Assembly (NCBI RefSeq): GCF_002760615.1
Contig: NZ_AWWI01000017.1
Location: 1-56,296, forward strand
Source: Puniceibacterium antarcticum
GTDB taxonomy: Bacteria > Pseudomonadota > Alphaproteobacteria > Rhodobacterales > Rhodobacteraceae
DNA: 56,296 nucleotides
Direction of reading: 5' to 3'
Within the stretch, counting starts at the first letter, position 1, and the number at the start of each line of letters is the position of its first letter. Shown piece by piece: positions 3,052-18,523 of the stretch. The position numbers and the translations under genes are program-made. A model generated the notes under the pieces. That model ran no database searches, was not told where the DNA came from, and saw nothing but the letters and a program-made list of their open reading frames with translations.

Positions 3052-3186
3052 TCAGCGCACCCGTCAGGCCGCATCCCGTCCTTGGGAGGGTGCATGTTTA
3101 TCGTCCACATCCAAGACGACCGGCGGCCCACGGGCCTCCCCAAAGGAATGATCCTAACCGGGATTCCGACCGCCATCGGTGATGCC

Positions 3187-3345
3187 TGAACTATCCCCAA
3201 AAATTCAGACACTGACATAAGCTACGATTTGCAGTCTGCTGATCTTCAACGAGCAGTGGATCAGAGATGTCTAAACGCAAGCAGTATGCGCCCGAGTTCA
3301 AGACGAAGTCGCGCTGGAAGTCCTGAAAGGCGAAGAAACGGCAGG
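3187..3345 (+). mobile_element. IS3-family left end and orfA fragment
   Basis: At 3187 a TGAACTATCCCCAAAAATTC terminus typical of IS3 elements begins. At 3267 an ATG opens MSKRKQYAPEFK, the start of IS3 OrfA. One base is missing shortly after, but VALEVLKGEET continues in the next frame. Homology stops at 3345, where IS256-like sequence on the other strand begins. A matching orfB piece lies at 3560-3671, so this IS3 copy was cut by other insertions or deletions. Confidence 0.75.
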
Positions 3346-3425
3346 CCGCGATGATAGGCTCTGGGAAGCCCTTCAGGCCATCCACGACCGCGATCAGGAA
3401 GTCCTGGACGCCCCGCGATTGACGG
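3346..3425 (-). pseudogene. IS256-family (mutator) transposase fragment
   Basis: Read on the minus strand this short piece encodes RGVQDFLIAVVDGLKGFPEP, the conserved segment of IS256-type transposases that contains the VDGLKGFP signature. Only about 27 residues remain. It lies between IS3 sequence and a fragment of a ribbon-helix-helix-like protein, part of a composite scar. Confidence 0.7.
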
Positions 3426-3550
3426 GCCTTACTTCGGTCGCGCCACGTCCGTCTCCAGCAGCATCCGGACATAGCGGGTGTAGGGCACAGCCGCTGGCTT
3501 TTGCCTTGGCCTTCACCGCGTCCAGGAGGGCCACGGGCGGACCCTTCCAA
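3424..3550 (-). pseudogene. C-terminal fragment of a ribbon-helix-helix (CopG/BrnA-like) antitoxin
   Basis: On the minus strand the reading AVKAKAKAS, followed after a one-base shift by AVPYTRYVRMLLETDVARPK and a stop, matches the C-terminal helix of small CopG/BrnA-like DNA-binding antitoxins. In that family a (V/I)PYTxL/YVRMxL core follows a basic helix. Only about 35 residues survive and no toxin gene is adjacent. The assignment rests on this short motif and is tentative. Confidence 0.35.
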
Positions 3551-3559
3551 AGCCTCGGC

Positions 3560-3671
3560 CCGGCATCAGCGCGATGCGGAACTTCGCCCTGGAATCAAAC
3601 GGGTCGGGGAAGAGACCTATCAGGTCTATGGTGTCCGCAAGGCATGGCACCAGTTGAAACGCGAGGGTTCC
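3560..3671 (+). pseudogene. IS3-family orfB (transposase) N-terminal fragment
   Basis: The segment encodes RHQRDAELRPGIKRVGEE followed by YQVYGVRKAWHQLKREG, the start of the IS3 OrfB HTH_21 domain that normally precedes the integrase core. It presumably belongs to the same element as the orfA piece at 3187-3345. It ends abruptly where IS66 transposase sequence begins at about 3672. Confidence 0.7.
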
Positions 3672-3976
3672 GGATCTTCCTTGAGGATGGCCATGTCGAC
3701 TCCAACCTGGTCGAGAACGCCATCCGCAGCCCGGCCATGAACCGCCGCAACGCGCTTTTTGCCGGTCACGATGAGGTTGGCCGTCCCTGGGCGCGCTTAG
3801 CAAGCCTGATCGGATCCTGCAAGATGAACGGCTTCGAACCCTATGCCTACCTGCGTGATCTCTTCACCAAACTCACCAACGGCCATCTCGACAAGGACAT
3901 CGATGCGCTGATGCCATGGGCCTACGCTGTCGCCCCCCATTCCCTCACAATGAGCTCATCCGGGAGTCCCCAGTGA
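3672..3976 (+). pseudogene. IS66-family transposase (TnpC), C-terminal fragment
   Basis: The reading FLEDGHVDSNLVENAIRS, then NRRNALFAGHDEVG, then LIGSCKMNGFEPYAYLRDL and DALMPWAYA is the C-terminal third of IS66 TnpC. It includes the conserved vENaIRP/NRKNaLFAG block and the terminal lLPWay motif. The rest of TnpC and the accessory genes tnpA and tnpB are absent. It is fused in frame to non-IS66 sequence upstream. The stop at 3974-3976 lies inside the inverted repeat 3946-3986. Confidence 0.8.
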
Positions 3977-3986
3977 GCTCATTGTG
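3946..3986. repeat. perfect 13-bp inverted repeat at the end of the IS66 remnant
   Basis: CACAATGAGCTCA at 3946-3958 is repeated in inverted form (TGAGCTCATTGTG) at 3974-3986 with a 15-base loop, and it is followed at once by a second palindrome GTGAGCGCTCAC (3985-3996). No T-run follows, so a terminator is not obvious. It could be the end structure of the IS66 element or an inserted hairpin. Confidence 0.6.
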
Positions 3987-4180
3987 AGCGCTCACGAAGG
4001 CGAAAACGTCAGCCGGACGCACGGTCGCCCCCAACCGCAAGTGAAGACTCAATGGGCCGGAACCGGCGCATACAATATATCCAAGCTTGTAGCCCTTAAC
4101 CTACCGCCTGTTTTAGTTGGCTTATTAGGCCGTTATTTATAGCCTGACAAGGAACAGGCAACTCACAACTGCGGCAAAAC

Positions 4181-4531
4181 ATGACCCACAACACCCTCAG
4201 AGCCGCCCGACCTGGGCTTAACTGGACGCAGGCACAGCTTGCCGCAGAGACTGGCGTTCACGCCACGAGCGTTGCTTATTGGGAGCGCACAGCGGGCCAG
4301 ATAATCCACCCCGAGGGGCAGGTAATGCCTAAAGTCTTGGACGCCTTTGCCCGCCATGGCGTGGTGATGGAGGGCGCCCGGATCACCTTCACAGATGCCC
4401 CCGCGCAATTACCGTCTACATCGCAGAAACTGCGCCACGACACCGGGCAAATCGCCCTCTGGAAACGCCGCTGCGACGCACAAGCCGGGATCATCGGTCT
4501 GCAACGGACGGAAGCTCCAAAGCCGTGCTGA
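4181..4531 (+). CDS. small XRE-type helix-turn-helix protein
   Basis: The 116-residue protein has one N-terminal HTH of the Cro/CI (XRE) kind at about residues 5-60: LRAARPGLNWTQAQLAAETG, then HATSVAYWER, which fits the pattern of helices 2 and 3 (WTQxxLAxxxG...SVxxWE). A region like those of orphan phage-type regulators follows (VLDAFARHGVVMEGARITF). The C-terminal 50 residues are not recognised. It stands alone between IS debris and a sulfotransferase gene on the other strand, so its target is unknown. An AT-rich stretch at 4115-4145 upstream could hold its promoter. Confidence 0.6.
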   Translation: MTHNTLRAARPGLNWTQAQLAAETGVHATSVAYWERTAGQIIHPEGQVMPKVLDAFARHGVVMEGARITFTDAPAQLPSTSQKLRHDTGQIALWKRRCDAQAGIIGLQRTEAPKPC

Positions 4532-4854
4532 TACAGAGGGACGCATCAATGATTTACTGACTCAGGAAGTTAACGATGGCGCTAACCACATCACGGCTGC
4601 AGCAAAAAGGCAGACGAAAGATAGGAAGGCATGCCGCATGTCCTCCCAGATCGACAGTGCGATCGCCACGACTGCGGCCCGCGCCAGATCGGCGTAACGG
4701 ATGGAATCGGTGAACAACAATTCAGCTTCGCCGAGATGGATTGAGATCGGCAGCAGGTCGTCGAGCCGCGCACAGAGCGGTGACGCCTTAAGGTCCACCG
4801 CTTCCTAGGCCTGAAGATGCGTGACGGCGACGGCCTGAAGCACGCAGCCATCCG
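4532..4854. other. 323-bp stretch without a recognised gene
   Basis: A 78-codon open frame on the minus strand (4562-4798) encodes a partly hydrophobic peptide (LARAAVVAIALSIWEDMRHA) that I do not recognise. It has no clear ribosome binding site. It may be the scar of a deleted gene, and I see no RNA gene or IS end here. Confidence 0.4.
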
Positions 4855-5493
4855 TCATCCGGGCAGATCGGGATAGTTAAAGAGGAAAAAGTCAGCGGAG
4901 AAGGTCTTTTGCATCAAACTGACGGCTTCAACCGAATATTGATCTTCATCGCGATTTTCCGACTTGTTCTCAACCGGAAGATCGACGGCATCCCCGAAAA
5001 GCTCGGTTGTCAGGCGCGCAAAATCTTCAGTCAGTGCCTCGAAACGCAAGATACGACTTACCACTAGTCTCCCATCATGATCGACTATTCGGCCGCACAT
5101 AGTCGAAGGTCGATTCAAACAGGCCCAAATGGCGTAGTCAGAGAACGGACCATCCAACGGGGCCGGGTGCGGCCGCTTAAATGCTCGTCGAGCATAGTGG
5201 TATCGGCTCCGCATCCTGTTCCAGGGATTGCGCACCACACCGAACGAAACCAAGCGGCTGAATTCTGCTTCACCCAATCCAGTGCGCGCATCAATAGCAC
5301 GGGCATGGCCTACAGTGTGGACAATTTCGGCACTACGGTTGTTTTCACTCTGCATAGCTGCTGCGATTGACGGCATCCGGTCAAAAGGTACGGACCCCGT
5401 TTTTTCTTTGAGGGTTTTAGCGATGCTAGTACCGCCGCATTTGGGGACATGGATAAAAAGAAATGCATGTTCCTTGTTGTATAGACCGGTCAT
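4855..5493 (-). CDS. sulfotransferase family 2 protein
   Basis: The 212-residue protein carries the PAPS-binding 5-prime motif FIHVPKCGGTSIAKTL at residues 13-28, the form used by the carbohydrate sulfotransferase family 2, and the 3-prime phosphate motif GVVRNPWNRMRSRYHYAR at 85-102. Length and motif spacing fit a compact bacterial member. It is likely cytoplasmic and transfers sulfate to a sugar of a surface polysaccharide. The gene is alone on the minus strand, flanked by IS debris. A perfect 20-bp palindrome lies about 200 bp upstream of its start (5696-5715). Confidence 0.85.
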   Translation of the reverse strand: MTGLYNKEHAFLFIHVPKCGGTSIAKTLKEKTGSVPFDRMPSIAAAMQSENNRSAEIVHTVGHARAIDARTGLGEAEFSRLVSFGVVRNPWNRMRSRYHYARRAFKRPHPAPLDGPFSDYAIWACLNRPSTMCGRIVDHDGRLVVSRILRFEALTEDFARLTTELFGDAVDLPVENKSENRDEDQYSVEAVSLMQKTFSADFFLFNYPDLPG

Positions 5494-5695
5494 CCATTTT
5501 CCTCATCCTAGGCTCTACACTTGAAACGCCTTTCGGAAGTGTAATCACGCCCAAAGCGAATTTTAAAGCCATTTATTGCCTGTGGTTTCTGTGGGTGCTG
5601 GAACATAATCCACCGTAAGCGGCCGTTCGTTGATTGCGCAATTTGACACAGCCGAAGGATGCCCGAGTCTTTTCATTTTAACTTGGTAGAGGCGT

Positions 5696-5715
5696 GCTGC
5701 AATGTACATTGCAGC
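5696..5715. promoter_or_regulatory. perfect 20-bp palindrome, operator-like
   Basis: GCTGCAATGTACATTGCAGC reads the same on both strands with no mismatch. It lies in the 274-bp AT-rich spacer between the sulfotransferase start (5493, minus) and the IS1380 left end at 5768. Length and symmetry fit a dimeric-regulator site, but no regulator can be assigned. Confidence 0.45.
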
Positions 5716-6458
5716 TAACTTATGGGCATAATCGTGAGAAAATAAAAAATGAGACTATCCTTTCTAATCCCGGATTATTCATCCAAATCGTTTCGTGAAG
5801 GTTGCGTGCGCCTGCAAGCGGCGTATAATCAAGCTGTCGAAACAAAATCCGCAGCAGCCACGGATCCACGCATGGGTAGAAACGCTACGACCGGTCGCGA
5901 CCGGATTCAGCCGTTCTCTGACCGTTGAGGCGCACTCAGAGCGTTTAACCGGCGACCCCGGCGCGGTGCTGATTCTGTAGGTGCTCGATGCGACCGGTAT
6001 CGTGCCGTGGATGGCGGCGCAGATGAAGGACGATCGCCGCTAGGGCGACGTCGTCCACGACCTGCCGTCTTTGCTGCGGACCATGTTGCTTTTGGTGGCG
6101 CAGGGCTGGCGAGACCACGACGATGCAGACGCCCTGCGCGACGATCCCGCGATGCGCCTCTCGATCAGTTCCTCGGCCGGGCTGACGCCGCTGACGGAAG
6201 AGGTCGGGCTGGCGTCGCAGCCGACGCTGTCGCGCTTTACGGAGATGCTGGCGCGACCGGAGAACCTGAAGGTGCTGCGTGAGGCGGCGCTCGAACTTGT
6301 CGGGCGCAACCTGCGCGCTGAAAACGGTGGCGCGCGGCGCACCCGCATTACGTTGGACGTGGACAGTTTGCCGGTCGAAGTCCACGGCCACCGGCCGAAG
6401 GCGGAGTGAAACGGCCGCTACAGGGCACGGATCTATCATCCGCTCATCACGTCCATCG

Positions 6459-6485
6459 CGTCACGCCAGAGGCGTGCTTTCGGCA
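6459..6485 (+). repeat. short hairpin insertion CACGCC-AGA-GGCGTG in IS1380 copy 1
   Basis: A perfect 6-bp stem with a 3-base loop lies inside the transposase between YHPLITSI and TTGDMLDARL, where other IS1380 transposases, as I recall them, have no such segment. The same unit, inverted, forms half of the insertion at 6654-6701, and both recur in copy 2 (11895-11921, 12221-12268). Confidence 0.5.
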
Positions 6486-6541
6486 CGACAATCGGCGACA
6501 TGCTCGACGCCCGTCTGCGCCCGGGCAATGTCAGTACCGCG

Positions 6542-6582
6542 CCCTCTCGGCAGATTGCTTCGCAATCGCCTGCCGGGCAATG
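6542..6582 (+). repeat. 41-bp hairpin insertion (REP-like element), copy A
   Basis: The outer arms CTCTCGGCAG and CTGCCGGGCAATG enclose an inner stem ATTGC-TTC-GCAAT. It sits between the codons for NVST(A) and DGALDVILD of the IS1380 transposase and shifts the frame. Other copies are at 7632-7672, 11978-12018 and 33202-33244. Confidence 0.7.
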
Positions 6583-6653
6583 GATGGCGCATTGGACGTG
6601 ATCCTCGACGTCGTCGATCGCGCCGAAGCCAGCCTGTGCAAGATCACCATCGA

Positions 6654-6701
6654 CCGCCCCGGAGGGGCTCCTTCATTGCAAGGCACGCCTCTGGCGTGAC
6701 G
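6654..6701 (+). repeat. double-hairpin insertion in IS1380 copy 1
   Basis: Two hairpins in tandem, GCCCC-GGA-GGGGC and CACGCC-TCT-GGCGTG, are joined by CTTCATTGCAAGG-type sequence. They interrupt the transposase just before the TEPRLWTHDLEHQAS segment. The second hairpin is the inverse of the short insertion at 6459-6485. The paired-hairpin layout resembles BIME/REP units. Confidence 0.5.
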
Positions 6702-7631
6702 ACGGCGTCTGACCGAACCCCGGCTGTGGACCCATGATCTGGAACATCAGGCCAGCACCTGGGATGAGCCTCGCCGCGTCGTGCTCTTGGTCAAAGAGCG
6801 GCCCGACGACCTGTTGCTCGACCGGTTCTTCCTCGTCACCTAGATCTCGCATTTCCAGATGAACGGGCAGGCCCTGCCGGAGCATTACCGCCAGCGCGGC
6901 AAGGCCGAGGGGCACATGGGCGAGTTGAGGGACGTGCTGGCGCCCACGCTGTCCTCGACCAACCGGCCGAAGACCCACCTGCGCGGCAAAAAGCCAAAGA
7001 CGGCGGCGTCCGCTGTCGATGCCTTTGCCTGCAACGAGGTGCGGCTGCTGATCGCTATGCTGGCATACCAGGCCATGCATGTGGCCCGCCGCGCCATGGC
7101 GCACGCGACCGGCTCGCCGTGGAGCCTGAGCGCCTCGACCTGTTCCAGGGCCTCGGCCAGGGTGTGACCGTCGTATGGGTTACCTAGCATGGCGCGCATG
7201 CCGACGACGAAGCATTCGTCGATCGTGGTGGCGAGGCTGACCTTGCAGCCGAACTCGTAGCGCACCCGCGCCTTCCCCTTTGAGATACAGTCGACGTCGG
7301 GCTCGTGCAGGGCGTAGATCTTGCCCTTTCCCTTCGGAGCCTGGTGCAGCAGCTTCGACACGCGCGCCAGAATATCGGCCACGCCGTCGCGCATTGCACC
7401 CGCTGGGATGTTGTCCAGCCGCCGACGGATATCGCGCATGACGCGACCCGTGTATCCGCGCAACGTTCTCAGTGCCTTGCGCATCCGCTTGTATTGGCGC
7501 GCGTGGGCATACCGGCCGATCTGCATCGCCAGCCGCGGCGCCTTGCGCGCATAGGTCTGGCGCAGGTCGAGGCCAAGCTCCTTCGCAAGCGCGACCAACT
7601 TCACCCGTGCCTTTTCGTAGAGCCGAGCGTC

Positions 7632-7672
7632 CATTGCCCGGCAGGCGCATCCGCAGGATGCTGCCGGGAGGG
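7632..7672 (-). repeat. 41-bp hairpin insertion (REP-like element), copy C, in the IS5 transposase
   Basis: Read on the minus strand, the outer arms CTCCCGGCAG and CTGCCGGGCAATG are almost the same as in the IS1380 copies, but the inner stem is CATCC-TGC-GGATG in place of ATTGC-TTC-GCAAT. Pairing is kept while the bases change. It splits the IS5 motif KNIAY(S)T from DARLYEKA and has the same 41-bp length as copies A and B. Confidence 0.75.
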
Positions 7673-7877
7673 GGTTGAATACGCGATATTCTTTTCCATC
7701 ACGGTGGTGTCGACGGAGACCCGCGCAATGCTGTCGTCGTCGATGATACCGCCAGACCGGCCCGCTTGAATCGTCTTGGTCAGCAGCCACTCCGCGCCCT
7801 CTTCGCCGATACGATCGCGCCAACGGCTTAGTGATGACGTATGTATCGGCGGGGTGTGCTGGAGTGAGGAGGATCAG

Positions 7878-7900
7878 AAAACAGCGTGGGGCGCTGTTTT
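7878..7900. repeat. hairpin insertion AAAACAGCG/CGCTGTTTT in the IS5 transposase
   Basis: A perfect 9-bp stem with a 5-base loop sits exactly where the IS5 transposase frame is lost, after GETF. About 45 bp around it do not belong to the transposase reading. It is unrelated in sequence to the 41-bp family. Confidence 0.55.
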
Positions 7901-8207
7901 CCCGACGAACGTCTCACCTGTGAAATGCTGAACATACGGGGAGTCCACCCAGCGGGCGATCACGGCCTCGTCCGAGCGCCGATAGGCATGCTGCAGATAC
8001 ATGAGGCCCGCCACAAGCCGTGGCAGCGTCGCAGGCAGCCCTGTCGCCGACGGGAAGAAACCAGCCCATTCCCGCTCGAAGAATTCCCAGTCGATCAAGT
8101 CCGCCAGCTTCACCAGATCGTGGCGCATGTCGATCATGTCGACCAATCGGGGGCGGAGGAGGTCATCCTGTTCCTTAGGACGCGAACGGTGCTTCATGGC
8201 AGGATCC

Positions 8208-8251
8208 AAACTGCAGAAATTTCAATTGGATTCTACGAATTCCTGCAGTTT
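8208..8251. repeat. 14-bp inverted repeat upstream of the IS5 transposase
   Basis: AAACTGCAGAAATT at 8208-8221 and AATTCCTGCAGTTT at 8238-8251 pair at 13 of 14 positions around a 16-base loop. It begins 11 bp before the transposase start codon and may be the IS5 end or another inserted hairpin. Confidence 0.5.
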
Positions 8252-8504
8252 GAAGCCAGAAAAATATCCGATTTATCTCCGTTATTCAGCTACATGGCAG
8301 TTGTTCAAGCCGAACTTGGTAAACAGGCCCATAATCCAAAAAGTTTGCGACAGAACCACCAAACGGGAGGGCATTCTACGCGCAGGCGAACTGGTGGATA
8401 CGCATTTCATCCTGCATTCCCCAAGTAATCTGCTGATTTTTATATCCTGACGATGGAGTTATCTATATAAAATATAATGTTGATTTCTGCGGAGAGCGTG
8501 TTTC

Positions 8505-9308
8505 ATGGATCACCCAGAGGGTGCGGGTTCCGCGCGGGTAGATCGGCTGGATTTCTTTGTATCGGGCATCCAGAAGGCCGGCACGACTGCTTTGGACACC
8601 ATGCTGCGACAGCACGGGTGTGTTCAGATGTCTGCCAAGAAGGAAGCGCATTTCTTCGATGATGAAGGCATTGATTGGGCCGCGCCGGACCATTCGTCAC
8701 TGCATGCGCTTTTTGACTGGTCAAAGGCCTATGTTCTGCGCGGGGAAGCAACACCGATCTACATGTATTGGCCAAATTCAATCGAACGCTTGGCCGCCTA
8801 CAATCCGTACGCAAAATTGATTGTCTGCCTGCGCCATCCGGCCTATCGCGCCTACTCTCATTGGCGGATGGAAATGACTCGGGGGGCAGAAAACCTTCCG
8901 TTCAGATTTGCAATCCGTGAAGGTCGCGACCGTGTTTCCAACGCCCCGGCGGGTGTTCACAGAACCTATTCCTATGTCGAGCGCGGGTTTTACGCGGCCC
9001 AGATCGCGCGTCTCTGCGCGCATTTTTCCAAATCTCAATTGCACTTTCTTCGCATGGATCATCTTTGGGTCAACACGCAAAGGGAACTTGATGGCCTGAT
9101 GGAGTTTCTGCAGCTGCCCAAGGCGGGGATCGCAGTAAGCCAATACATCGTTTCAGTCGATTCAACCGGTATGGCGCCCATGCAAGCCGAGGACCTTTCG
9201 TATCTTTGCGGCCTTTATGAAAATGACATCCAGTTGACCGGCCAACTGGCGGGGATATCACTTGAAGACTGGTGCTGTTGCAACTATACTGAGCCGATGG
9301 TCTCTTGA
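8505..9308 (+). CDS. sulfotransferase domain protein
   Basis: This 267-residue protein has the classical heparan-sulfate-type sulfotransferase signature: FFVSGIQKAGTTALDTML at residues 17-34 (PAPS 5-prime phosphosulfate loop with the catalytic-type Lys and Thr) and KLIVCLRHPAYRAYSHWRME at 104-123 (3-prime phosphate loop). A mid-protein SYVERGFYAAQIARL segment is typical of acceptor-side residues in this family. The ATG at 8505 follows a GGAGAG box by about 12 bp. It converges with another sulfotransferase gene 44 bp away, in the remains of a glycan-sulfation island. The acceptor is unknown. Confidence 0.9.
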   Translation: MDHPEGAGSARVDRLDFFVSGIQKAGTTALDTMLRQHGCVQMSAKKEAHFFDDEGIDWAAPDHSSLHALFDWSKAYVLRGEATPIYMYWPNSIERLAAYNPYAKLIVCLRHPAYRAYSHWRMEMTRGAENLPFRFAIREGRDRVSNAPAGVHRTYSYVERGFYAAQIARLCAHFSKSQLHFLRMDHLWVNTQRELDGLMEFLQLPKAGIAVSQYIVSVDSTGMAPMQAEDLSYLCGLYENDIQLTGQLAGISLEDWCCCNYTEPMVS

Positions 9309-9352
9309 ACCGGATTATGGCGTCTTGCGCGCTCGTGTGGTGACGCCTGGCG

Positions 9353-10192
9353 CTATTGCGAAAGCAGCAAGGCTTCGACATTCACCTTTTCGTAGAATGA
9401 CCAGCACGACGATTCGGACTCAAGCAACCGCATGCCGATTTCCTTTGCCGCAGGGTCGGTCTGGATGCCAAGCATATTGCGTGATCTCAGCGGTTCATCC
9501 AGCTGGTTTGCCGCCGGATTGATCAGGGACAAGGCCTTGCCACCGGATCGAATGATGTCTTCATACCAGATTATCCGGGAAGGAAGAAACCGGCGATACT
9601 GTGAAAAGCAGTAATCAAGAAGAATGAGCTGTCGGTTCAGGACATCCGGTTCTGCGTTCAGCAGGGTTACCAGACGCGGATCGAACTGTTCCGCAGCGGG
9701 CATACGACCGTCGGAAACCGCCATGCCCGCCGTGCGCCAGGATAACAGCACGGCCAAAGGGTTGCGCACGATTGCAAAGCAGCTGAACCGGCCTATCAAC
9801 ACGGGCAGCGCAGCCGTGAAGAACGCGGGGTGCTTGATATAAAGATGGAAGGTGCTGCTGCTGACATTGGAAACCGCGATCTCAGTGCCGTTCAGTATTG
9901 TCGTTCGGCGCCCCTGTGCATCCGCGTCTCCCCTCGGGTTGGGGGGCACTGCGCCGTTCCACGCCTTGCTGGTCGCGGTGCCTTTAGTGAGGATCTGGTC
10001 GCGTTGAGCGGCAAAGAATTGCGCAATCGTCCCCAGAAGTTCGGTCGTTTCCAGGCCCTCCAGTTGGTTCGGCGACATGGGTTCGTGCAGAGCCACGCTG
10101 TTCGGAACCTTGTTCAAAAGATGGCAAGTCAAGGTCGTGCCCGATCGCGGCAGCCCGGTTATCAGAATGTCTTGCGTGGTATCTGTGTTCAT
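9353..10192 (-). CDS. sulfotransferase family protein
   Basis: The 279-residue protein has a PAPS-loop motif ITGLPRSGTTLTCHLL at residues 11-26 and a 3-prime phosphate motif FAIVRNPLAVLLSW at 139-152. HEPMSPNQLEGLE at about 36-48 resembles the region that positions acceptor residues. The arrangement fits the sulfotransferase_3/1 group. Its start codon overlaps the stop of the upstream glycosyltransferase gene by 4 bp (ATGA, 10189-10192), so the two are translationally coupled and probably act on the same polysaccharide: sugar transfer, then sulfation. Confidence 0.88.
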   Translation of the reverse strand: MNTDTTQDILITGLPRSGTTLTCHLLNKVPNSVALHEPMSPNQLEGLETTELLGTIAQFFAAQRDQILTKGTATSKAWNGAVPPNPRGDADAQGRRTTILNGTEIAVSNVSSSTFHLYIKHPAFFTAALPVLIGRFSCFAIVRNPLAVLLSWRTAGMAVSDGRMPAAEQFDPRLVTLLNAEPDVLNRQLILLDYCFSQYRRFLPSRIIWYEDIIRSGGKALSLINPAANQLDEPLRSRNMLGIQTDPAAKEIGMRLLESESSCWSFYEKVNVEALLLSQ

Positions 10193-11109
10193 GCCTGCCG
10201 GATGTCCTCAAGGATGTTAAGGAATGTCTCGCGTTCGCTCCGGATATCATGGCGAAGGCTGATTTCCTTGCCCTTGTCGCGCAACGTTTTTGAGAGCAGT
10301 GGATCGCGTGTCACCTCATGGACCGCGGCCACCAGATGATCGAGGTCAAGCGGGGGTGTCAGTGCCGTCACCCGATCGATGCAGAAGGCGCGATTGCCGA
10401 TGCAGTCCGGGCAAATCACGACAAGACCCATCGCAAGGGCTTCCAGCGAGGGAAGATAAAACCCCTCCTCAGGAAGGGGCAGCAACACCACCACGCGCGT
10501 GCGCGCCATACGGGTAAGAAACACGCTTCTGGGCAGATGTTCTATTTGGCAGTCTACAGTGTAGCCCTGTTCTTGCAGGCGCGCCGTCAGGTCGGAGGCA
10601 AGTCTTGGCTGCTTCGAGCCGCTGACGAAGATGTCGCAATCAACGATACCATCGCTGACGGGTAGTAATCCGAAATCGATGCCGTTCGGAATGACATGGA
10701 TGGGACCGTTACATAGGACGGTGGCTTTCAGTGCCTGCGCCACCTGATCGCTGACGCACAGCCTGATGGCCCGGCGACGCAGGAAACCGAACAACGGGTT
10801 GGAAGGCGAAGCGTGTCTTAGGCCTTGGACAAGGTTGACCACCGGTACACGCTCTTCGATGCCGGGGTGCGCTGCCAGCGCCGTCCAGTCCATCCCGGCG
10901 ACGAACAGGATTTCTGCATTTTCGGGGTCATAGTCTTTGACAACGCCCTGTTTCCCGCGCCAAGGGTGGTCGGTCGCGCTATTCTGCGTCAAATGGATTT
11001 CTGCCAAGTAGTTGTCACAACTGAGGGTGTGGTTGAAGTAGTCGAACACCTTCAGGTGCCCACCTGTGAAGGCTTTGAATTCCCTGTGGAAAAGAACTCG
11101 TCTTGGCAA
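10189..11109 (-). CDS. glycosyltransferase, GT4/GT-B type
   Basis: The 306-residue protein has GT-B features: an N-terminal half with HVIPNGIDFG at residues 138-147 (the IPNGID hinge of GT4 enzymes) and the C-terminal nucleotide-sugar motif EEGFYLPSLEALAMG at 214-228 (E-x7-E type). VVICPDCIGN follows, as in GT4 enzymes that guard the donor site. The N-terminal domain is short (about 150 residues), as in single-domain bacterial members. The start is TTG at 11109, preceded by a GGAG box with normal spacing. It is first in a two-gene unit with the sulfotransferase, and IS1380 copy 2 begins 124 bp upstream. Confidence 0.8.
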   Translation of the reverse strand: MPRRVLFHREFKAFTGGHLKVFDYFNHTLSCDNYLAEIHLTQNSATDHPWRGKQGVVKDYDPENAEILFVAGMDWTALAAHPGIEERVPVVNLVQGLRHASPSNPLFGFLRRRAIRLCVSDQVAQALKATVLCNGPIHVIPNGIDFGLLPVSDGIVDCDIFVSGSKQPRLASDLTARLQEQGYTVDCQIEHLPRSVFLTRMARTRVVVLLPLPEEGFYLPSLEALAMGLVVICPDCIGNRAFCIDRVTALTPPLDLDHLVAAVHEVTRDPLLSKTLRDKGKEISLRHDIRSERETFLNILEDIRQA

Positions 11110-11894
11110 TGTAAATCTCCGGAAGGGTTTCGCTCGGACGGGCAGTGTCTATCTAAATGGCGGTCGCGGCAGTTCGTGTCAAATACGCAGCAATGCGTCG
11201 CCTTTGCAAAGGGGATAGCGCCGATGCATCACCCCAGCTTATTCATCCAAATCGTTTCGTGAAGGTTGCGTGCGGCCGAAAGCGGCGTAGAATCAAGCTG
11301 TTCAAACAAAATCCGCAGCAGCCACGGACGCACGCATGGGTGAAACGCTATGACCGGTCGCGACTGGATTCAGCCGTTCTCTCACGATTGAAACTCGGGC
11401 AGAAAGATTGACCGGCGACCTCGGCGCGGTGCTGCTTCTGGAGGTGCTCGATGCGACCGGTATTGTGCCGTGGATGGCGGCGCGGATGAAGGACGATCGC
11501 CGCTAGGGCGACGTCGTCCACGACCTGCCGTCTCTGCTGCGGACCATGTTGCTTTTGGTGGCGCAGGGCTGGCAGGATCAAGACGATGCCGACGCCCTGC
11601 GGCACGATCCCGCGATGCACCTCGCGGTCAGTTCCTCGGCCGGTCTGGCATCGCAGCCGACATTGTCGCGCTTTACGGCGATGCTGGCGCGACCGGAGAA
11701 CCGACAGGTTCTGCGCGAGGCGGCCATCGAACTAGCAGGCCGCAACCTGCGCTCTGAGAAAGGTGGCGAGCGGCGCACCCGCATTACGTTGGGCGTGGAC
11801 AGCCTGCCGGTCGAGGTCCACGGCCATCAGCCCAAGGCAGAGTGGAGCGGCCATTATCGGGCCCGGATCTATCATCCGCTCATCACGTCCATCG

Positions 11895-11921
11895 CGTCAC
11901 GCCAGAGGCGTGCTTTCGGCA
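11895..11921 (+). repeat. short hairpin insertion in IS1380 copy 2
   Basis: Same unit and same place as 6459-6485 in copy 1: CACGCC-AGA-GGCGTG between the YHPLITSI and TTGDMLDARL parts of the transposase. Confidence 0.5.
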
Positions 11922-11977
11922 CGACAACCGGCGACATGCTCGACGCCCGTCTGCGCCCGGGCAATGTCAGTACCGCG

Positions 11978-12018
11978 CACTCTCGGCAGATTGCTTCGCA
12001 ATCGCCTGCCGGGCAATG
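11978..12018 (+). repeat. 41-bp hairpin insertion (REP-like element), copy B
   Basis: It is the same as copy A except for one base near its left end (CAC against CCC). The inner stem is ATTGC-TTC-GCAAT. Family sequence reads NVST(A) before it and DGALDVILD after it in a different frame, so the insertion itself is the frameshift. Confidence 0.75.
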
Positions 12019-12220
12019 GATGGCGCCCTAGACGTGATCCTCGACGTCGTCGATCGCGCCGAGACAAGTCTGTGCAAAATGACCACCGTGCGCATCGACG
12101 AGGGCTTTCCTTCTAGCGTGTTTCTGGCAGGCTTGGAGGCGCGTGGGATCCATCACGTTGCCCGTCTGCGCGCAAACCCCACGCTCGACCGGCTGGCCGA
12201 GCTGCACATGAATCGCCCGG

Positions 12221-12268
12221 CCGCCCCGGAGGGGCGCCTTCATTGCAAGGCACGCCTCTGGCGTGACG
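12221..12268 (+). repeat. double-hairpin insertion in IS1380 copy 2
   Basis: CGCCCC-GGA-GGGGCG (12222-12236) and CACGCC-TCT-GGCGTG (12251-12265) are joined by CCTTCATTGCAAGG. It interrupts the transposase between HMNRPA and TEPRLWTHDLEHQAS, with a frame change. Confidence 0.5.
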
Positions 12269-13186
12269 ACGGCGTCTGACCGAACCCCGGCTGTGGACCC
12301 ATGATCTGGAACATCAGGCCAGCACGTGGGACGCGCCTCGCCGCGTCGTGCTCGTGGTCAAGGAGCGGCCCGACGACCTGTTGCTCGACCGGTTCTTCCT
12401 CGTCACCTCGATCTCGCATTTCCAGATGAACGGGCAGGCCCTACTGGAGCATTACCGCCAGCGCGGCAAGGCCGAGGGGCATATGGGCGAGTTGATGGAT
12501 GTACTGGCACTAGCCCTGTCCTCGACCAAACGGCCGAAGACCCACCTGCGCGGCAGAAAGCCGAAGACGGCGGCGCCTGCCGTCGATGCCTTTGCCTGCA
12601 ACGAGGTGCGGCTGCTGATCGCAATGCTGGCCTACCAGGCTATGCATGTGGCCCGCCGCGCCATGGCGCACGCGACCGGCTCGCCGTAGAGCCTGCGCCG
12701 CTTGCGCGAGCGCGTTCTGCGCGGCGGCGGACGTCTTTTCATCTCGGCCCGCCGCATGACCCTGATCCTCGCCGAAGCCGTGGCGCCATTCTGGGCGGCC
12801 CTCTGGCCGCAGATCCAGACCCTGCGCGGCGCCAGTCCATGAGCCCCCGCTTGGCGCCCATACCCTCAGACCGCCTACAACGCCTTCGGGCGGCCCTGAA
12901 CGCATGCGCATCGGCGCCTGACGTTTCACGTTCTGGATGCCGGAAATATATCGTTAGCAACCAAGCCGCGAAACGCCGACGGCGCACCCTTCGGTGTTGC
13001 GTGTACGTGCTGCCTAAACCGACCTCAAGCCGACGCTGGCGGCGTCCAAGACCATCCCGGTGAATAATGCGGGATCAGACAGCGGCGCGCCCGAAGCGGG
13101 AAGCGGCGCGTTTCCGGGCCTCAGGATCAATGCGGCGCAGCAGCCCTACTAGGCACAGCGCGATGTGCTCGATATGGTCGCGTGAA

Positions 13187-13789
13187 ATGAAGTTACAGGT
13201 CTCCGACAGACCCGGGGCGATTCAAATGTGCGAAGCGCAATCCATCAGAGCACTAACAAGCTTTATCTTCATGGACGACGAACCAGCCACGGTCGATCTG
13301 GCCATTGTCCTTGGATCTCCGTCGATTTCCAACGTGGAACCTGCAATTGATCTCTACCTTAAGGGGTTCACAAAGAAGATCGTGATCAGTGGGCACGGCC
13401 CTTCGCCTGAAAGCGTACCCGAATGGCGGATCTACCGTGATCACGCCTTAGCAGCAGGCGTGCCGTCCGAGGCACTGATGATAGAGCCCAACGCCAGAAA
13501 TACGTTGGAGAATTTTCTTTTCACGGCAAAAGTGATCACTCAGCATACATCTTGGGATAAGATTTCTCGCATTGCGATCTGCTGCAAACCTATTCATACG
13601 CGCCGCGCCTTTATGACGGCACGGAAGCATTTCCCCGGTCACGTGAAGCTCTTTATGTGTCCACCGCGGGACCCTGCCGACCTTCAGGCGCACAATTGGT
13701 CGCAGACGGTGATCGGACGTGACCGTGTATTAGGTGAGGTTCGACGTATTGCCGAATATGGGATGAAAAGGGACTTGTCGATTGATTGA
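13187..13789 (+). CDS. YdcF/ElyC/SanA-family (DUF218) protein
   Basis: With the ATG at 13187 the protein has 200 residues and the DUF218 pattern: a hydrophobic strand ending in AIVLGSP, then KKIVISGHGPSPESVPEW, then AAGVPSEALMIEPNARNTLENF, the conserved E-P-x-A-x-N-T-x-E-N block that forms the putative active site. Family members are linked to envelope and peptidoglycan processes, and their reaction is not settled. No membrane helix is seen, unlike SanA or ElyC. Longer starts would run into the IS1380 right end and are unlikely. The stop overlaps the start of the Mur ligase-NRPS gene by 8 bp (13782-13789), so the two are expressed together. G+C looks lower than in neighbouring regions. Confidence 0.8.
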   Translation: MKLQVSDRPGAIQMCEAQSIRALTSFIFMDDEPATVDLAIVLGSPSISNVEPAIDLYLKGFTKKIVISGHGPSPESVPEWRIYRDHALAAGVPSEALMIEPNARNTLENFLFTAKVITQHTSWDKISRIAICCKPIHTRRAFMTARKHFPGHVKLFMCPPRDPADLQAHNWSQTVIGRDRVLGEVRRIAEYGMKRDLSID

Positions 13790-16700
13790 ATTTTTGGATC
13801 TTCCTGTCAGTCTGCGGACCAGTCGTGGCGTTCATTTTGTGGGAATTCTGGGTGCGGGAATGAGTGCGCTTGCCCAGCTTTGTTTAGATCTAGGACTAAG
13901 GGTTTCTGGTAGCGATCAAACCGACAATCCGCGCCTCGGCGCGCTACGGACAAAAGGAGCCGGGATAACGATTGGGCACTGCGCGACAAATCTTTTGGGC
14001 GCAGACACGGTGGTTTTCAGCCCAGCGGTGCCTCGAGACAATCCCGAGTTGGTAGCGGCAAGGGCGATCGGACTGCGCCAGATCTCGCGCCCAAGGGCTC
14101 TTGCTGAATTGCTTGGGGGACAAGAGTTTGTGGCTGTTGCGGGAAGTCACGGTAAGACCACAACAGCGGCTCTGCTGGCCCATATCCTGGAAAGTGCAAA
14201 CCTTCATCCTGGCTACATGATCGGCGAAACCTGCCCATCCCTTGCTGGGGGAAATGCGAAATGGAGCGGGCAAGGTGTCTTTGTCAACGAGTCTTGCGAA
14301 GCCTTCCGCGCCTTGGATTTCTGGCAGCCACAACACTGCATTGTAACCAATGTTGAAGATGAGCATAGCGATCATTACGGATCACTTCAGGCACTAGAGG
14401 ACGCGTTTGCCGATTTCATCCAACGTGTTCCGGTTGGCGGTAGGGTTCTTTTGTGTGCCGAATGTCCAACACTAGCCGCTATAGCGACGCAGATGGCAGA
14501 TCGGGTCGAAAGCTATGGATTGTCGCCGGGTACAAACTGGCGGGCCGTCATTCTGGAAATGACGCCAACCACTTCGATCTTTGAGGTCTGGAACAATGGA
14601 CGTCACCTCGTCAAAATATCTTTGAACCTGCCAGGAAAGCACAATGTTCTGAACGCACTTGGTGCGATTGCCATGGCTTCTTACCACGGGGTTTCGCCAG
14701 AGATCTCGGCACAGAGTTTGGGGGAATTTCAGTCCATTCCCCGACGTTGGCAAAAACTCGGGCAAATGGCCGAAGTGGGCGTGTTCGATGATCTCGCACA
14801 TCATCCAACAGAGGTTGCAGCCACTCTTTCTGTAGCGCGCACTACAGTCCGAAGGAATGGGGCCGTTATCGCGGTGTTTCAGCCGCAGCTTTACAGCCGA
14901 CTGTCGCGCCTGGCGCCAGATTTCGCGATCGCCCTGCGTTCGGCGGATCATGTCATCATACTGCCAATCGACTGCGCAGGTGAACTGAGAGGCGACGAAA
15001 ATCCCGAAGCGCAGTTATGGACGATTTTGGACAATCTTCAGGTTCCAGCGGTCCGGGCGAAGACCGCGTTAGAGGCTTGCCGAAAGGTAGCAGAACTGGC
15101 TCACCCCGGTGACCTTGTCGTCACTATGGGCCCCGGTTTAGCCCATGAAACGGGTAAAATGGTTCTTCGTTTTTTGGAACGAGAGGCAGGACTCCCGATT
15201 GAGGAACAATCAAAGGGCACCACGCCAGTGACACAGTCTACGGCTTTGCGCCTACAATCGGCGTTTGAAGCGCGGGCCAGAACCCGGCCAGACTCACCGT
15301 GCTTGACCCTTGAAGAACGGGTCTGGACCTATCGCGAAATTGATTGCCTCGCCCAATCGTTTGCCTTTGCTCTTTCAAAACGCGAGGTTGGTCGAGACGA
15401 TTTGGTTGTTCTCGTTTCCCATAAAACCCCGCAATTGATTGCACTCATGTTGGGTACGCTTAAGGCGGGGGCAGCTTTTGTTCCAATCGACCCCAAAATG
15501 TTGCGTGCTGGTATTCTTGCTGGGTTCGAGCAGGTGGGGGCGGCAATCATCTTACATGATCATGCCGCCGATATTGCGACACCGGCTGGCATTCCGGCAA
15601 TGCGCATTGACGCCTTTTTGTACGAAGCACTTGAACTCGAAGAACCCCTTGTAAGTTTGAAAGCAGAGACGCACGACAGCGATCTTGCCTATGCGATCTT
15701 CACCTCTGGTTCGACGGGAATCCCGCGCTTGGTCGGTGTGGAACACCGAAACGTCTGCAACCTCTTGCAGTTTTCAACGCAGGCGCTTTTTGACGCGGAT
15801 GACTTGGCCCTTACGCCTTTTATCGACTCAATCAGTTTTGACGCGAGCATTCACCAAATCTTTGCGACGCTGTCATTGGGCGGTTGCCTGTTGATAGAAG
15901 CTGATATGACCGGGATCATGCGGTCCAAGAATTTTGGTCACATTACCAATCTTGGCGGCACCCCAACGGTAATTTCAAGTCTGGCACAGATTGGCGCATT
16001 GCCAGAATCTTTGCGCGTAATCTCACTTGGCGGCGAAGTCATACCGCAAAGCCTGATTGCAACCCTTCGCCAGAGCACCAAGATAAAAAAGCTGTTCAAC
16101 TTTTACGGCCCCACCGAAACCACCATCTTTTCCACCGTTGCACAATTCTTGCGCCGTGGCCCGACGGAAGATTTTGCCGATGATGTGGGCGCTAACATCG
16201 GCTTTCCCGTAGCGGGCACCATCATTTACCTTTGCGATGCGCAAGATAAATTGGTGCCTGATGGGGCAATTGGGGAAATCTGCATCGCAGGTGCTGGAGT
16301 GGCCCGCGGCTATCTTGGTTCCCACGTTCAGACGGAAGAACGATTTGCGCCCGATCCATTTTTGGATGGAACCAAGCAGCGGATGTATCGCACCGGTGAT
16401 CTTGGAAAGCGCCTACCAGATGGCTCTCTCGAATTTGTTGGCCGCGTAGATGATCAAATGAAGGTCAACGGAATCCGCATTGACCCCGTAGAAATCGAGC
16501 TTCACCTCAATGCATGCGCAGGCATCGAACGGGCCGCGGTTGTAAATTTGGCGGGTATATCGGGCCGTTCCGTTCTGACGGCCTTCGTCCTTGCGGATCA
16601 CACGTTGGATTTTCAACAGATCCGATCCGATATTGCGGCGAAGTTACCCTCCGCCATGGTGCCCAAAGAGTTCATCCGTGTTGATAGTTTGCCCATGTCA

Positions 16701-17675
16701 AGCAACGGGAAGCTCCAGAGGAATGACCTGCGCAACCCTGTGGCGCAAAAGATGCCCGTCAGTTCAATTACTCCGGCATCACTTGACGGTGTGGAGCGGC
16801 GTTTGGTTCTGATATGGCGCGCAGTTCTGCAATGCCAAGATCTGACCGTGCAGGATGACTTCTTTCTACTTGGCGGTGATTCCCTCGCTTCTGTGCAAAT
16901 GGTTATGGCTGTAGAGAAGGCATTTGGAATGAGGCTCTCCGCACAAGCCTTGGAAACCATCGGGACAATTGAAGCGATGGCGGATCAAATTAGGGCGCTG
17001 TTAGCGGATCCGAAGTCGCTAGGGAAGATACAGCCCGACCTCGCGGAACGAATTTTGGACAAGCAAAAGGCGTTCTTGGCGGCTTGGAAAAGCGAGAACA
17101 TTGATCAGTCAGGGTTTATCCGCACCCTGAATTGCGGAGGCAAGAAGCCCGGCTTGTTTTGGTGTTTCCAAGGGTTCCCAGAACTGAAGGCTCTTGCCAA
17201 AGCCCTTGGCCCAGATCGCCCATTGCATGGAATGCGTTCGGCCCATATGATCATGGAACATGTGCCCGATACGATCGCGACCCTTGCCCATCAATACAGC
17301 GAAGAGATTATCTCTCTTCAACCCCAAGGCCCTCTTCTATTGGGAGGCAATTGCCAAGGAGCCACGATCGCCCGCGCGACAGCCTTTGCTTTGCGCGCCC
17401 GCGGTCGTGAAGTACGTCACTTGCTTCTTATGGAACAGGCCAGTATTTGGCCTTACGACAAACAAGTTGGGCTGATCTTTGGGCGCAATAGCAGTCACAA
17501 CCCTTACCTGACGAACGAAGACCCTGAAACTGCGTTCAGAAAGGCCTATGCACAGGGTTTTGCAGTAGAGATCGTTGAGGGTGCCCATGGAGAGTTCTTT
17601 ATGGAGGAAAACATCCCTTCGCTGACTCGCGCAATCAACGCCCTGATCGACAGACAGGTCGAGAACCTGTGCTAG
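13782..17675 (+). CDS. Mur ligase - NRPS adenylation - carrier - thioesterase fusion protein
   Basis: This 1297-residue protein has four parts. Residues 1-470 form a full MurC/Mpl-like ligase: HFVGILGAGMSALAQL, SGSDQTDN, the ATP loop AVAGSHGKTTTAAL with Lys125, IVTNVEDEHSDHYGS, DDLAHHPTEVAATL (336-349) and FQPQLYSRLSRL. Residues about 486-985 are an adenylation domain: FTSGSTGIPR (640-649), NFYGPTETTIF with Tyr775, YRTGDLGKRLPDGSLEFVGR and the catalytic SSNGK with Lys977. A carrier domain follows with LLGGDSLASVQ and phosphopantetheine Ser1034. Residues about 1110-1297 are an alpha/beta-hydrolase thioesterase whose nucleophile elbow is GGNCQG (Cys1191), with Glu1218 in the usual Asp position and His1269. 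There is no condensation domain. The start TTG at 13782 overlaps the YdcF-like gene. The housekeeping murC lies in the dcw cluster, absent here, so a specialised ligase is likely. Confidence 0.9.
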   Translation: MIEFLDLPVSLRTSRGVHFVGILGAGMSALAQLCLDLGLRVSGSDQTDNPRLGALRTKGAGITIGHCATNLLGADTVVFSPAVPRDNPELVAARAIGLRQISRPRALAELLGGQEFVAVAGSHGKTTTAALLAHILESANLHPGYMIGETCPSLAGGNAKWSGQGVFVNESCEAFRALDFWQPQHCIVTNVEDEHSDHYGSLQALEDAFADFIQRVPVGGRVLLCAECPTLAAIATQMADRVESYGLSPGTNWRAVILEMTPTTSIFEVWNNGRHLVKISLNLPGKHNVLNALGAIAMASYHGVSPEISAQSLGEFQSIPRRWQKLGQMAEVGVFDDLAHHPTEVAATLSVARTTVRRNGAVIAVFQPQLYSRLSRLAPDFAIALRSADHVIILPIDCAGELRGDENPEAQLWTILDNLQVPAVRAKTALEACRKVAELAHPGDLVVTMGPGLAHETGKMVLRFLEREAGLPIEEQSKGTTPVTQSTALRLQSAFEARARTRPDSPCLTLEERVWTYREIDCLAQSFAFALSKREVGRDDLVVLVSHKTPQLIALMLGTLKAGAAFVPIDPKMLRAGILAGFEQVGAAIILHDHAADIATPAGIPAMRIDAFLYEALELEEPLVSLKAETHDSDLAYAIFTSGSTGIPRLVGVEHRNVCNLLQFSTQALFDADDLALTPFIDSISFDASIHQIFATLSLGGCLLIEADMTGIMRSKNFGHITNLGGTPTVISSLAQIGALPESLRVISLGGEVIPQSLIATLRQSTKIKKLFNFYGPTETTIFSTVAQFLRRGPTEDFADDVGANIGFPVAGTIIYLCDAQDKLVPDGAIGEICIAGAGVARGYLGSHVQTEERFAPDPFLDGTKQRMYRTGDLGKRLPDGSLEFVGRVDDQMKVNGIRIDPVEIELHLNACAGIERAAVVNLAGISGRSVLTAFVLADHTLDFQQIRSDIAAKLPSAMVPKEFIRVDSLPMSSNGKLQRNDLRNPVAQKMPVSSITPASLDGVERRLVLIWRAVLQCQDLTVQDDFFLLGGDSLASVQMVMAVEKAFGMRLSAQALETIGTIEAMADQIRALLADPKSLGKIQPDLAERILDKQKAFLAAWKSENIDQSGFIRTLNCGGKKPGLFWCFQGFPELKALAKALGPDRPLHGMRSAHMIMEHVPDTIATLAHQYSEEIISLQPQGPLLLGGNCQGATIARATAFALRARGREVRHLLLMEQASIWPYDKQVGLIFGRNSSHNPYLTNEDPETAFRKAYAQGFAVEIVEGAHGEFFMEENIPSLTRAINALIDRQVENLC

Positions 17676-18523
17676 TTGGGTTTGGCGATCACGCGGTATC
17701 TGCTACACGCAAGACCGCTGTAGTCCACAGCGCTGCTGACATTTGCTACAAAGACTTCAAATCCTGCGGCCTCAATCATGCACATCACTTCCGCCTCGGA
17801 AAGGAAGAACTCAAATTGGCCTGACGGGCTGGTAATCTGAATCACCTCCCCCGTCTTTGAATTCGAGATAGTCTGACCTAGCCACCGTTCAGCCAAATCG
17901 GAAAACTCTGCGTCCGAACGCGCCAAATCTGCCAAACTTCGCGTTGTTGCTGTCAACTCTTGCGGCCAATCTGTCTGAGAAGTAGCCGATATAGCGGAGC
18001 ATTGCAGCAACTTAGATGCGCCCGCCGAAAAGCTAATCAAGCAAATCCCCTGTTGTTTGATATGCCGCCGCGCTTCTTGCAAGAGAGCGGGAATATAAAC
18101 TGGCGGCATGCAATTCAACACAAAATCTTGCACAATCAAATCGAACTTACGGCCCGCAAGCCGATCTCCGATGGCGCAGGCATCAGCCTGAATGAATTCT
18201 ATTTCAGGCATGTCGACGCCGAGTTCTTGATAAATCGTCGGCAACGGAATTTGATCAATCGCAAAAATTTGAACATTGTCGATGCCACGGCCCAGAAGAG
18301 CTTTACGGAGATCATCAGCATTTGTGGGTGTCGTATAACCTTGAAACAAGCATTCAAGGTTTGATCCAAACGTGGCGAGGGATGCAACAAAGTGATCGGA
18401 GGTCGCGAAAACAGAAAGACTCGAGGCAAGCGTTGGAGCGTCGGGGCAGAAATCGGGACTCGTCTCTAAGTAGCGTCCGACTAAATGGACATCAGCCAAA
18501 TGTCTAATCGCCTCGGCACTCAT
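17672..18523 (-). CDS. SAM-dependent methyltransferase-like protein
   Basis: The 283-residue protein has a class I methyltransferase layout in its middle: a motif I-like strand with QGYTTPTNADDLRKALL, an acidic strand end in IFAIDQIPLPTIYQ (motif II), EIEFIQADACAI (motif III), FDLIVQDFVLNCM (motif IV) and LLQEARRHIKQQGICLISF (motifs V and VI). The C-terminal part MCMIEAAGFEVFVANVSS is typical. The glycine-rich loop is not textbook, so an inactive or unusual member cannot be excluded. It converges with the Mur ligase-NRPS gene, overlapping 4 bp at the stops, and is bounded by the third IS1380 end, so it probably belongs to the same cassette and may methylate its product. Confidence 0.7.
   Translation of the reverse strand: MSAEAIRHLADVHLVGRYLETSPDFCPDAPTLASSLSVFATSDHFVASLATFGSNLECLFQGYTTPTNADDLRKALLGRGIDNVQIFAIDQIPLPTIYQELGVDMPEIEFIQADACAIGDRLAGRKFDLIVQDFVLNCMPPVYIPALLQEARRHIKQQGICLISFSAGASKLLQCSAISATSQTDWPQELTATTRSLADLARSDAEFSDLAERWLGQTISNSKTGEVIQITSPSGQFEFFLSEAEVMCMIEAAGFEVFVANVSSAVDYSGLACSRYRVIAKPN

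Follow-up and report, generated by a model that had tools for sequence, protein, structure and literature searches.

A Mur ligase fused to an adenylation, carrier and thioesterase line in Puniceibacterium antarcticum and other alphaproteobacteria: a candidate one-module peptide synthetase with a ligase in the place of the condensation domain

The window analysed here, which is the whole of a 56,296-base contig (NZ_AWWI01000017.1) from the 5.5 Mb draft genome of Puniceibacterium antarcticum, carries on its forward strand a single gene in which a Mur ligase is followed by adenylation (A), carrier (T) and thioesterase (TE) domains, and this Mur–A–T–TE architecture is real and conserved, being confirmed in ten distinct proteins. 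The reading we prefer, at a probability of about 0.36, is that the protein is a one-module nonribosomal peptide synthetase (NRPS) in which a MurC-derived UDP-sugar-acid ligase replaces the condensation (C) domain and links a carrier-bound amino acid to UDP-N-acetylmuramic acid (UDP-MurNAc) or a closely similar UDP-sugar acid. Held more tentatively is a fuller version, an NRPS line in which the Mur domain would be the condensation catalyst for muramic acid and the carrier-bound amino acid, and a lidless cysteine thioesterase would release the chain to give UDP-muramyl aminoacyl metabolites.

The gene is one uninterrupted frame of 1297 amino acids with a TTG start; this falls within the stop region of the DUF218 gene that precedes it, and the 8-bp overlap looks as if the two were translationally coupled. 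Its parts are as follows:
13782..17675, +: fusion gene, Mur–A–T–TE, TTG start overlapping the DUF218 stop (Pfam and TIGRFAM)
13830..14114, +: Mur N-terminal (UDP-binding) domain, residues 17-111 (PF01225, Mur_ligase)
14136..14678, +: Mur middle (ATP) domain, residues 119-299, with Lys125, Glu170 and Cys172 (PF08245, Mur_ligase_M)
14742..15134, +: Mur C-terminal domain, residues 321-451, with changed Leu338, Gln369 and Leu370 and kept Arg373 (PF02875, Mur_ligase_C)
15264..16712, +: adenylation domain, residues 495-977, with Asp687 and Lys977 (PF00501, AMP-binding, 495-845; PF13193, AMP-binding_C, 904-977; TIGR01733)
16800..16988, +: carrier domain, residues 1007-1069, with Ser1034 (PF00550, PP-binding)
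17079..17672, +: thioesterase, lidless in the model, residues 1100-1297, with Cys1191, Glu1218 and His1269 (PF00975, Thioesterase, 40.3 bits, best stretch 1148-1217)

All of these Pfam models score above their cut-offs, the protein reaches 334.7 bits with the amino-acid adenylation model TIGR01733 (cut-off 317.4), and the Pfam scan of the protein gave no match to a condensation domain. A preliminary description, made by eye from the letters, had already read the 1297-residue frame as Mur ligase, A, T and TE; the Pfam and TIGRFAM scan bears this out, the carrier serine was correctly placed at Ser1034, the GSHGKTTT loop is present at Lys125, and the condensation domain reported as absent has no match in the protein or in the source genome.

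The same description had looked to a search for Mur, A, T and TE in one protein, and ten such proteins are now in hand, the nine others being 31-48% identical to the window's over their length and spread over at least two alphaproteobacterial families. Among 394 genomes of the family searched at 1e-100, five matched, three of them over full length (the source genome, G046 and G152) and two (G200 and G316) over A–T–TE only. A contig scan, covering the 80 loci listed of 580 and thus setting the family size at ten or more, gave fusions at three loci (L023, from a Rhodobacteraceae metagenome-assembled genome; L024, Rhodobacter capsulatus DSM 1710; and L025, on a G152 contig) and no A–T or TE match at the other 77. 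Profile A2 was built from six fused Mur domains, so that the window, G046 and G152 are re-found by construction and G511, G555, G526 and G1185 are new. In 390 genomes of the order it found six fusions at 558-762 bits (adding G511, G555 and G526), the next match being an ordinary MurC at 353 bits, and each of these six genomes also has a second, MurC-level match. At 1e-120, a limit that would hide weaker members, the profile matched the source genome alone in 385 genomes of the class and gave two matches in 299 of the phylum, of which the new one, G1185, belongs to a different family of the class and scores 497 bits. The order, class and phylum samples overlap. A full-length relative with 31% identity lies on plasmid pAMI4 of Paracoccus aminophilus, the sole record with at least 80% cover among 2399 matching plasmid records, and viral contigs gave no pattern match to relatives of the fusion. 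The ten fall into two subgroups, one window-like (the window, G1185, L023 and G526) and one Paracoccus-like, with six members.

The ligase had been called MurC/Mpl-like, and score, tree and fold now uphold the MurC half of that description and not the Mpl half. The fusion protein scores 366.2 bits with the murC model TIGR01082 (cut-off 335.1; 366-370 bits for the Mur domain) and 181 bits with the mpl model TIGR01081 (cut-off 388.7); ordinary MurCs, found in 59 of 60 Pseudomonadota genomes, reach 491-616 bits with TIGR01082, above a second tier at 247-298 bits that we infer to be Mpl. A tree of 112 rows, made by a quick method with six of the ten fusions included and with two short rows and one duplicate dropped beforehand, places the six fused Mur domains in one clade (Shimodaira–Hasegawa-like approximate likelihood ratio test, SH-aLRT, 99) on the MurC side (support 100), where they split into window-like and Paracoccus-like groups; in the genomes searched, members of this clade were met only in fused form. 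The AlphaFold model of the Mur part (mean predicted local distance difference test, pLDDT, 94.0) retrieved in Foldseek the MurC structures 1p31 and 1p3d first (template modelling score, TM, 0.90; E 1.9e-48), with full-length Mpl 3hn7 at rank 22 (TM 0.66, E 1.7e-33); MurC 9ir5, which has another domain pose, gives TM 0.64, so that the TM contrast between MurC and Mpl is weak by itself. Taken together, the mpl score, the side of the tree and the Foldseek ranking rule out that the ligase is an Mpl.

The residues of the Mur domain point to a retained core and an altered pocket. In Haemophilus MurC numbers, K129, E173, E176, H198, N292, N295, R325, R326, D344, D345, H348, H349, R380 and the UDP-site Asp49 are kept in 10/10 fusions, and D175, S177, D178, Y346, H376 and R377 are changed in 10/10 and invariant in 30/30 control MurCs, which are the best-scoring 30 of 59 by TIGR01082, all from Pseudomonadota. 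The same controls also retain the conserved ATP, Mg and UDP-site residues together with H348 and R380. Five residues, Y346, H348, H376, R377 and R380, are reported to contact the incoming amino acid in a MurC product complex (PMC3060825), and three of them, Y346, H376 and R377, are lost in every fusion. To judge from these positions, the fused Mur domain looks like a working UDP-sugar-acid ligase with an altered amine pocket.

In the NRPS part, the carrier serine, the A-domain aspartate, which we take to be the anchor of the amino-acid amine, and the lysine of the GK motif are present in all ten fusions; the source genome has two genes of the ACPS/PPTase (carrier protein synthase/phosphopantetheinyl transferase) family. 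The specificity code given in the preliminary description, D-A-H-G-I-L-F-I-F-K, did not survive a second reading by eye from the core motifs, which gave D-A-H-G-S-G-F-I-F-K. The position numbering follows common usage rather than an alignment to GrsA, and a motif script matched just the six Paracoccus-like proteins. The Paracoccus-like code reads by eye DVGSIAA(V/I)EK, presumably closest to ornithine-type codes; the specificity positions do not allow the amino acid to be predicted firmly. Condensation domains gave no match in six of the seven fusion genomes scanned (the source genome, G046, G152, G555, G526 and G1185), all genomes being drafts in which absence means absence of a match, and were detected in both positive controls, the C–A–T–TE proteins of G200 and G316.

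The thioesterase belongs to a subfamily common to the ten fusions and four C–A–T–TE proteins (L013, L014, L021 and L022), with a GGNCQ motif around the cysteine and an ME pair in 14/14 and the histidine in 13/14, L013 having Tyr where the others have the conserved His. Cys1191 is likely the nucleophile. In the model (pLDDT 90.8) an alpha/beta-hydrolase core has 11 residues between strands 6 and 7, hence no lid, and the best solved match is the NocB thioesterase (TM 0.70). Of the features of type I thioesterases, the model thus has a predicted Cys/Glu/His triad in an alpha/beta-hydrolase fold and lacks the helical lid, which usually consists of two helices (PMC11298585). The cysteine nucleophile is shared with the thioesterases of SulM and ObiF, which close four-membered rings, the cysteine thioesterase of AB3403 being uncharacterised (PMC11298585), and on this account ring closure is conceivable for the fusion thioesterase as well. 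Unlike SulM, which has a lid, an Asp after beta7 (position II) and a QCN motif (PMC11298585), the fusion thioesterase combines a lidless model with a conserved Glu immediately after the first strand beyond the nucleophile (position I) and the GGNCQ motif.

The domains, catalytic residues, conservation and neighbours on which our proposal builds are read directly from sequence. As a first step the A domain would adenylate an alpha-amino acid and load it onto the phosphopantetheine of Ser1034; as a second, the Mur domain would activate UDP-MurNAc, or a close UDP-sugar acid, by converting its carboxylate to an acyl phosphate at the expense of ATP. In a third step the aminoacyl thioester on the carrier would attack this acyl phosphate with its free amine to give UDP-MurNAc-aminoacyl-S-T, and in a fourth Cys1191 of the lidless thioesterase would take the chain and deliver it to an acceptor, which may be water, an amine or a hydroxyl. 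DUF218 and, depending on the clade, a methyltransferase or a NagZ-like glycoside hydrolase of family 3 (GH3) may act before or after. The chemistry of the first, second and fourth steps is that expected of the families concerned; the third step is purely hypothetical, and so is the choice of sugar acid, amino acid and acceptor.

Since neither the protein nor six of the seven genomes gave a match to a condensation domain, either the Mur domain or aminolysis at the thioesterase has to make the amide. A carrier-bound aminoacyl thioester is favoured as the amine donor because the Mur domain stands at the position of the C domain in C–A–T–TE proteins having the same cysteine thioesterase, because its clade was seen only fused, and because H376 is gone. 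The Mpl-rich set (n=77) also departs at 376/377 (R in 66, S in 67), and residue 1 of the Mpl substrate, a peptide, likewise lacks a free carboxylate, which again favours the aminoacyl thioester. The earlier suggestion that the ligase may supply the amide normally made by a C domain thus gains circumstantial support, from the lack of a C-domain match in six of seven genomes, the loss of H376 in ten of ten fusions and a clade met only in fused form.

A number of observations weigh against this Mur-for-condensation line. The fused Mur domain remains above the equivalog cut-off for murC; two of the five amino-acid-site residues, H348 and R380, are retained in 10/10 fusions; the P-loop carries T126S in 10/10 and the conservative change T130S in 8/10; and the composition of the MurC control given above counts on the same side. 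Mycobacterium bovis MurC of known structure (7bva) also aligns a Leu with R377, and the free-standing MurC-side proteins have F346 in 8/8, L377 in 7/8 and H376 in 8/8, these coming from 77 Mur proteins (L026-L102) fetched by patterns, one of which sets position 346 as F or L and so favours F346. H376 alone therefore separates the fusions from free MurCs, positions 346 and 377 varying in free-standing MurC-side proteins too. The pocket changes would suit a peptide, or some other free amino acid, as well, and UDP-MurNAc is suggested as the substrate by clade and motifs alone. G511 has three C-domain matches, on a different contig from the fusion. In the A-domain trees each subclade is coherent and the two stand apart (89/85, below the tool's star), so that the loaded amino acid may differ between them; a single A-domain origin for both subclades is unsupported, with moderate support against it. 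The proteins that combine F346, L377 and H376 would by their sequences be a naturally occurring form of MurC that varies where the amino acid binds; L027, L029, L030, L036, L037 and L040 are free MurC-side proteins of this kind from Actinomycetota, mostly Microbacteriaceae.

Some of the same evidence fits other explanations. It is possible, though we consider it less likely, that the Mur domain supplies UDP-MurNAc with a free amino acid that is not L-Ala and that A–T–TE separately adds a second aminoacyl group to an amine or hydroxyl in the side chain of the product, the thioesterase serving as a transferase. The retention of H348 and R380 and the presence of L377 and F346 in free-standing MurC-side proteins would suit such serial, untethered activities, as would a lidless thioesterase that a bulky acceptor could enter; strict fusion, however, would be unnecessary, and H376, which in MurC helps to hold the incoming amino acid (PMC3060825), is lost in all ten. 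Decidedly less probable is an order like that of Mpl, in which A–T–TE, through aminolysis at its cysteine thioesterase, would yield a dipeptide or an aminoacyl amide, and the Mur domain would then ligate the piece en bloc to UDP-MurNAc. The loss at 376/377 common to the Mpl-rich set and the NagZ-like GH3, a recycling-type enzyme, at 4/10 loci speak for this order; yet the six fused Mur domains group on the MurC side (support 100), the mpl score is 181 against a cut-off of 388.7 bits, Foldseek ranks MurC first and Mpl 3hn7 22nd, and GH3 was not found at 6/10 loci, the window's included.

Also improbable is an acceptor other than UDP-MurNAc, for instance a UDP-uronic acid or a further UDP-sugar acid, with a product in which an aminoacyl amide sugar is destined for a polysaccharide of the cell surface. 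Close to the active site, every fusion departs from the 30 MurCs at positions 175, 177 and 178, two C–A–T–TE relatives lie near glycosyltransferases, and in the window glycosyltransferase and sulfotransferase genes lie left of an insertion sequence (IS) remnant; against this, fold and clade are those of MurC, and no glycosyltransferase was seen among the flanking genes scanned at other fusion loci, a scan that took in part of the genes and loci. As for the idea of an artefact or decaying gene with separate or non-functional Mur and NRPS parts, the broken IS1380-type transposase just upstream might suggest decay, but the odds are negligible, as the order recurs within a single frame, with catalytic residues kept, in ten proteins whose assemblies are separate. 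Separate Mur and NRPS genes, which by the preliminary description would have refuted the fusion, are not what was found, one shared frame being present in 10/10 proteins, and an assembly or annotation artefact is ruled out by these homologues with identical domain order.

Set beside known systems, the fusions share with MurC the fold (TM 0.90 to 1p31 and 1p3d), a score above the equivalog cut-off and the core ATP, Mg and UDP residues, and differ from it in the changes at H376, 175, 177, 178, 346 and 377 in all ten, in forming their own clade and in being fused to A–T–TE. Mpl, which attaches a tripeptide in recycling, shares the Mur fold and the departures at 376/377, and lies on the opposite side of the tree. 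C–A–T–TE synthetases of the EntF type (L014, L017/L021, L018/L022 and the longer L013) have the same A–T–TE order, and the four listed above have the same GGNCQ/ME cysteine thioesterase; in the fusions a Mur ligase stands where their C domain is. In lincosamide synthetase, NRPS parts serve to couple an amino acid to a sugar unit through an amide; there the amide is to an amino sugar, not a sugar acid, and the enzymes are others. MurC has been found fused to another enzyme before, as here, namely in MurB/C of Verrucomicrobium and MurC/Ddl of Chlamydia, where the partners are peptidoglycan enzymes and A–T–TE is unmentioned in the excerpt of the paper (PMC4803751), and a Mur ligase gene has been noted beside a cyclodipeptide synthase (PMC2922099). 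The terms nonribosomal, non-ribosomal, muram, adenylation and secondary metabolite are absent from the main text of the pAMI4 genome paper (PMC3925955). As far as searched, Mur–A–T–TE is an undescribed enzyme architecture: the preliminary description knew of no system with this domain order, and no description of the fusion was found among the open-access papers listed. If our reading is true, amide bonds on carrier proteins could be made by acyl-phosphate chemistry and chains could start on a nucleotide sugar, which would widen the scope of NRPS modules and tie the metabolism of cell-wall precursors to the assembly of natural products. Being a single protein, the enzyme is open to direct assay.

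Two genes overlap the fusion gene, one at each end:
13067..13789, +: DUF218 (YdcF-like) gene, PF02698, 70.2 bits (cut-off 27.6)
17672..18523, -: methyltransferase, convergent, overlapping the fusion end by 4 bp, weak in Pfam (PF08241, 22.2 bits, just above cut-off)

The conserved part of the DUF218 gene begins near 13250, and its true start may lie downstream of 13067. DUF218 is directly upstream in 8/10 fusions and is fused in frame at the N-terminus in the other two, L023 (1459 aa) and G526 (1446 aa), the DUF218–Mur–A–T–TE genes being L023:1464-5843 and L145:1141-5481. The adjacency is hardly due to chance, because in four of seven genomes scanned the DUF218 at the fusion locus is the sole DUF218 match of the genome. 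Thr, His and Glu columns are conserved in 10/10, and we equate them, without a residue map, with the conserved Thr/His/Glu triad of DUF218/YdcF (PMC12176290). The family supplies an in-frame biochemical partner for DUF218.

Downstream, no gene common to all fusion members was found. A methyltransferase abuts the fusion in 4/4 window-like loci, that of the window having a homologue placed alike, and likewise convergent, in G1185, the closest relative (38% over 283 aa, E 4e-68); that of L023 and G526 is of another type, co-directional and 68% identical between the two, with no detectable relatedness to the window type. In the Paracoccus-like subgroup a GH3 gene follows the fusion at four of six loci, NagZ (PRK05337) being the best family in 4/4 at 152-177 bits, under the cut-off of 207; among the six loci of the ten where GH3 was not found, it could be missed at G511, whose contig ends 2.6 kb downstream. 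Free Mpl-side ligases of Acidobacteriota (L031-L035, L041, L048, L051, L052 and L066) have a GH3 gene no more than a few kb away, an arrangement like that of a recycling cluster.

Transposase genes or remnants lie within about 0.5 kb of three modules, those of the window, L023 and G511, and together with the plasmid copy and the patchy spread they fit a mobile accessory module. In the window, a broken IS1380-family transposase at 11400-12840 (PF13701 and NF033539 on the open reading frame (ORF) 11546-12031) lies directly upstream of the DUF218 gene. A GC content of about 53% hints weakly at mobility, as parts of the window elsewhere go equally low. The next gene downstream of the G511 fusion, L143:1244-2170, is an integrase/transposase gene. 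Left of the IS remnant, window positions 881-11109 hold two glycosyltransferase-like and several sulfotransferase-like genes, possibly a sulfated surface-polysaccharide region. Further along, a single ORF at 37410-39356 joins a xylose-isomerase-like TIM (triosephosphate isomerase) barrel (PF01261) to a glyoxalase of the 4-hydroxyphenylpyruvate dioxygenase (HPPD) type (PF14696), next to a shikimate dehydrogenase-like gene.

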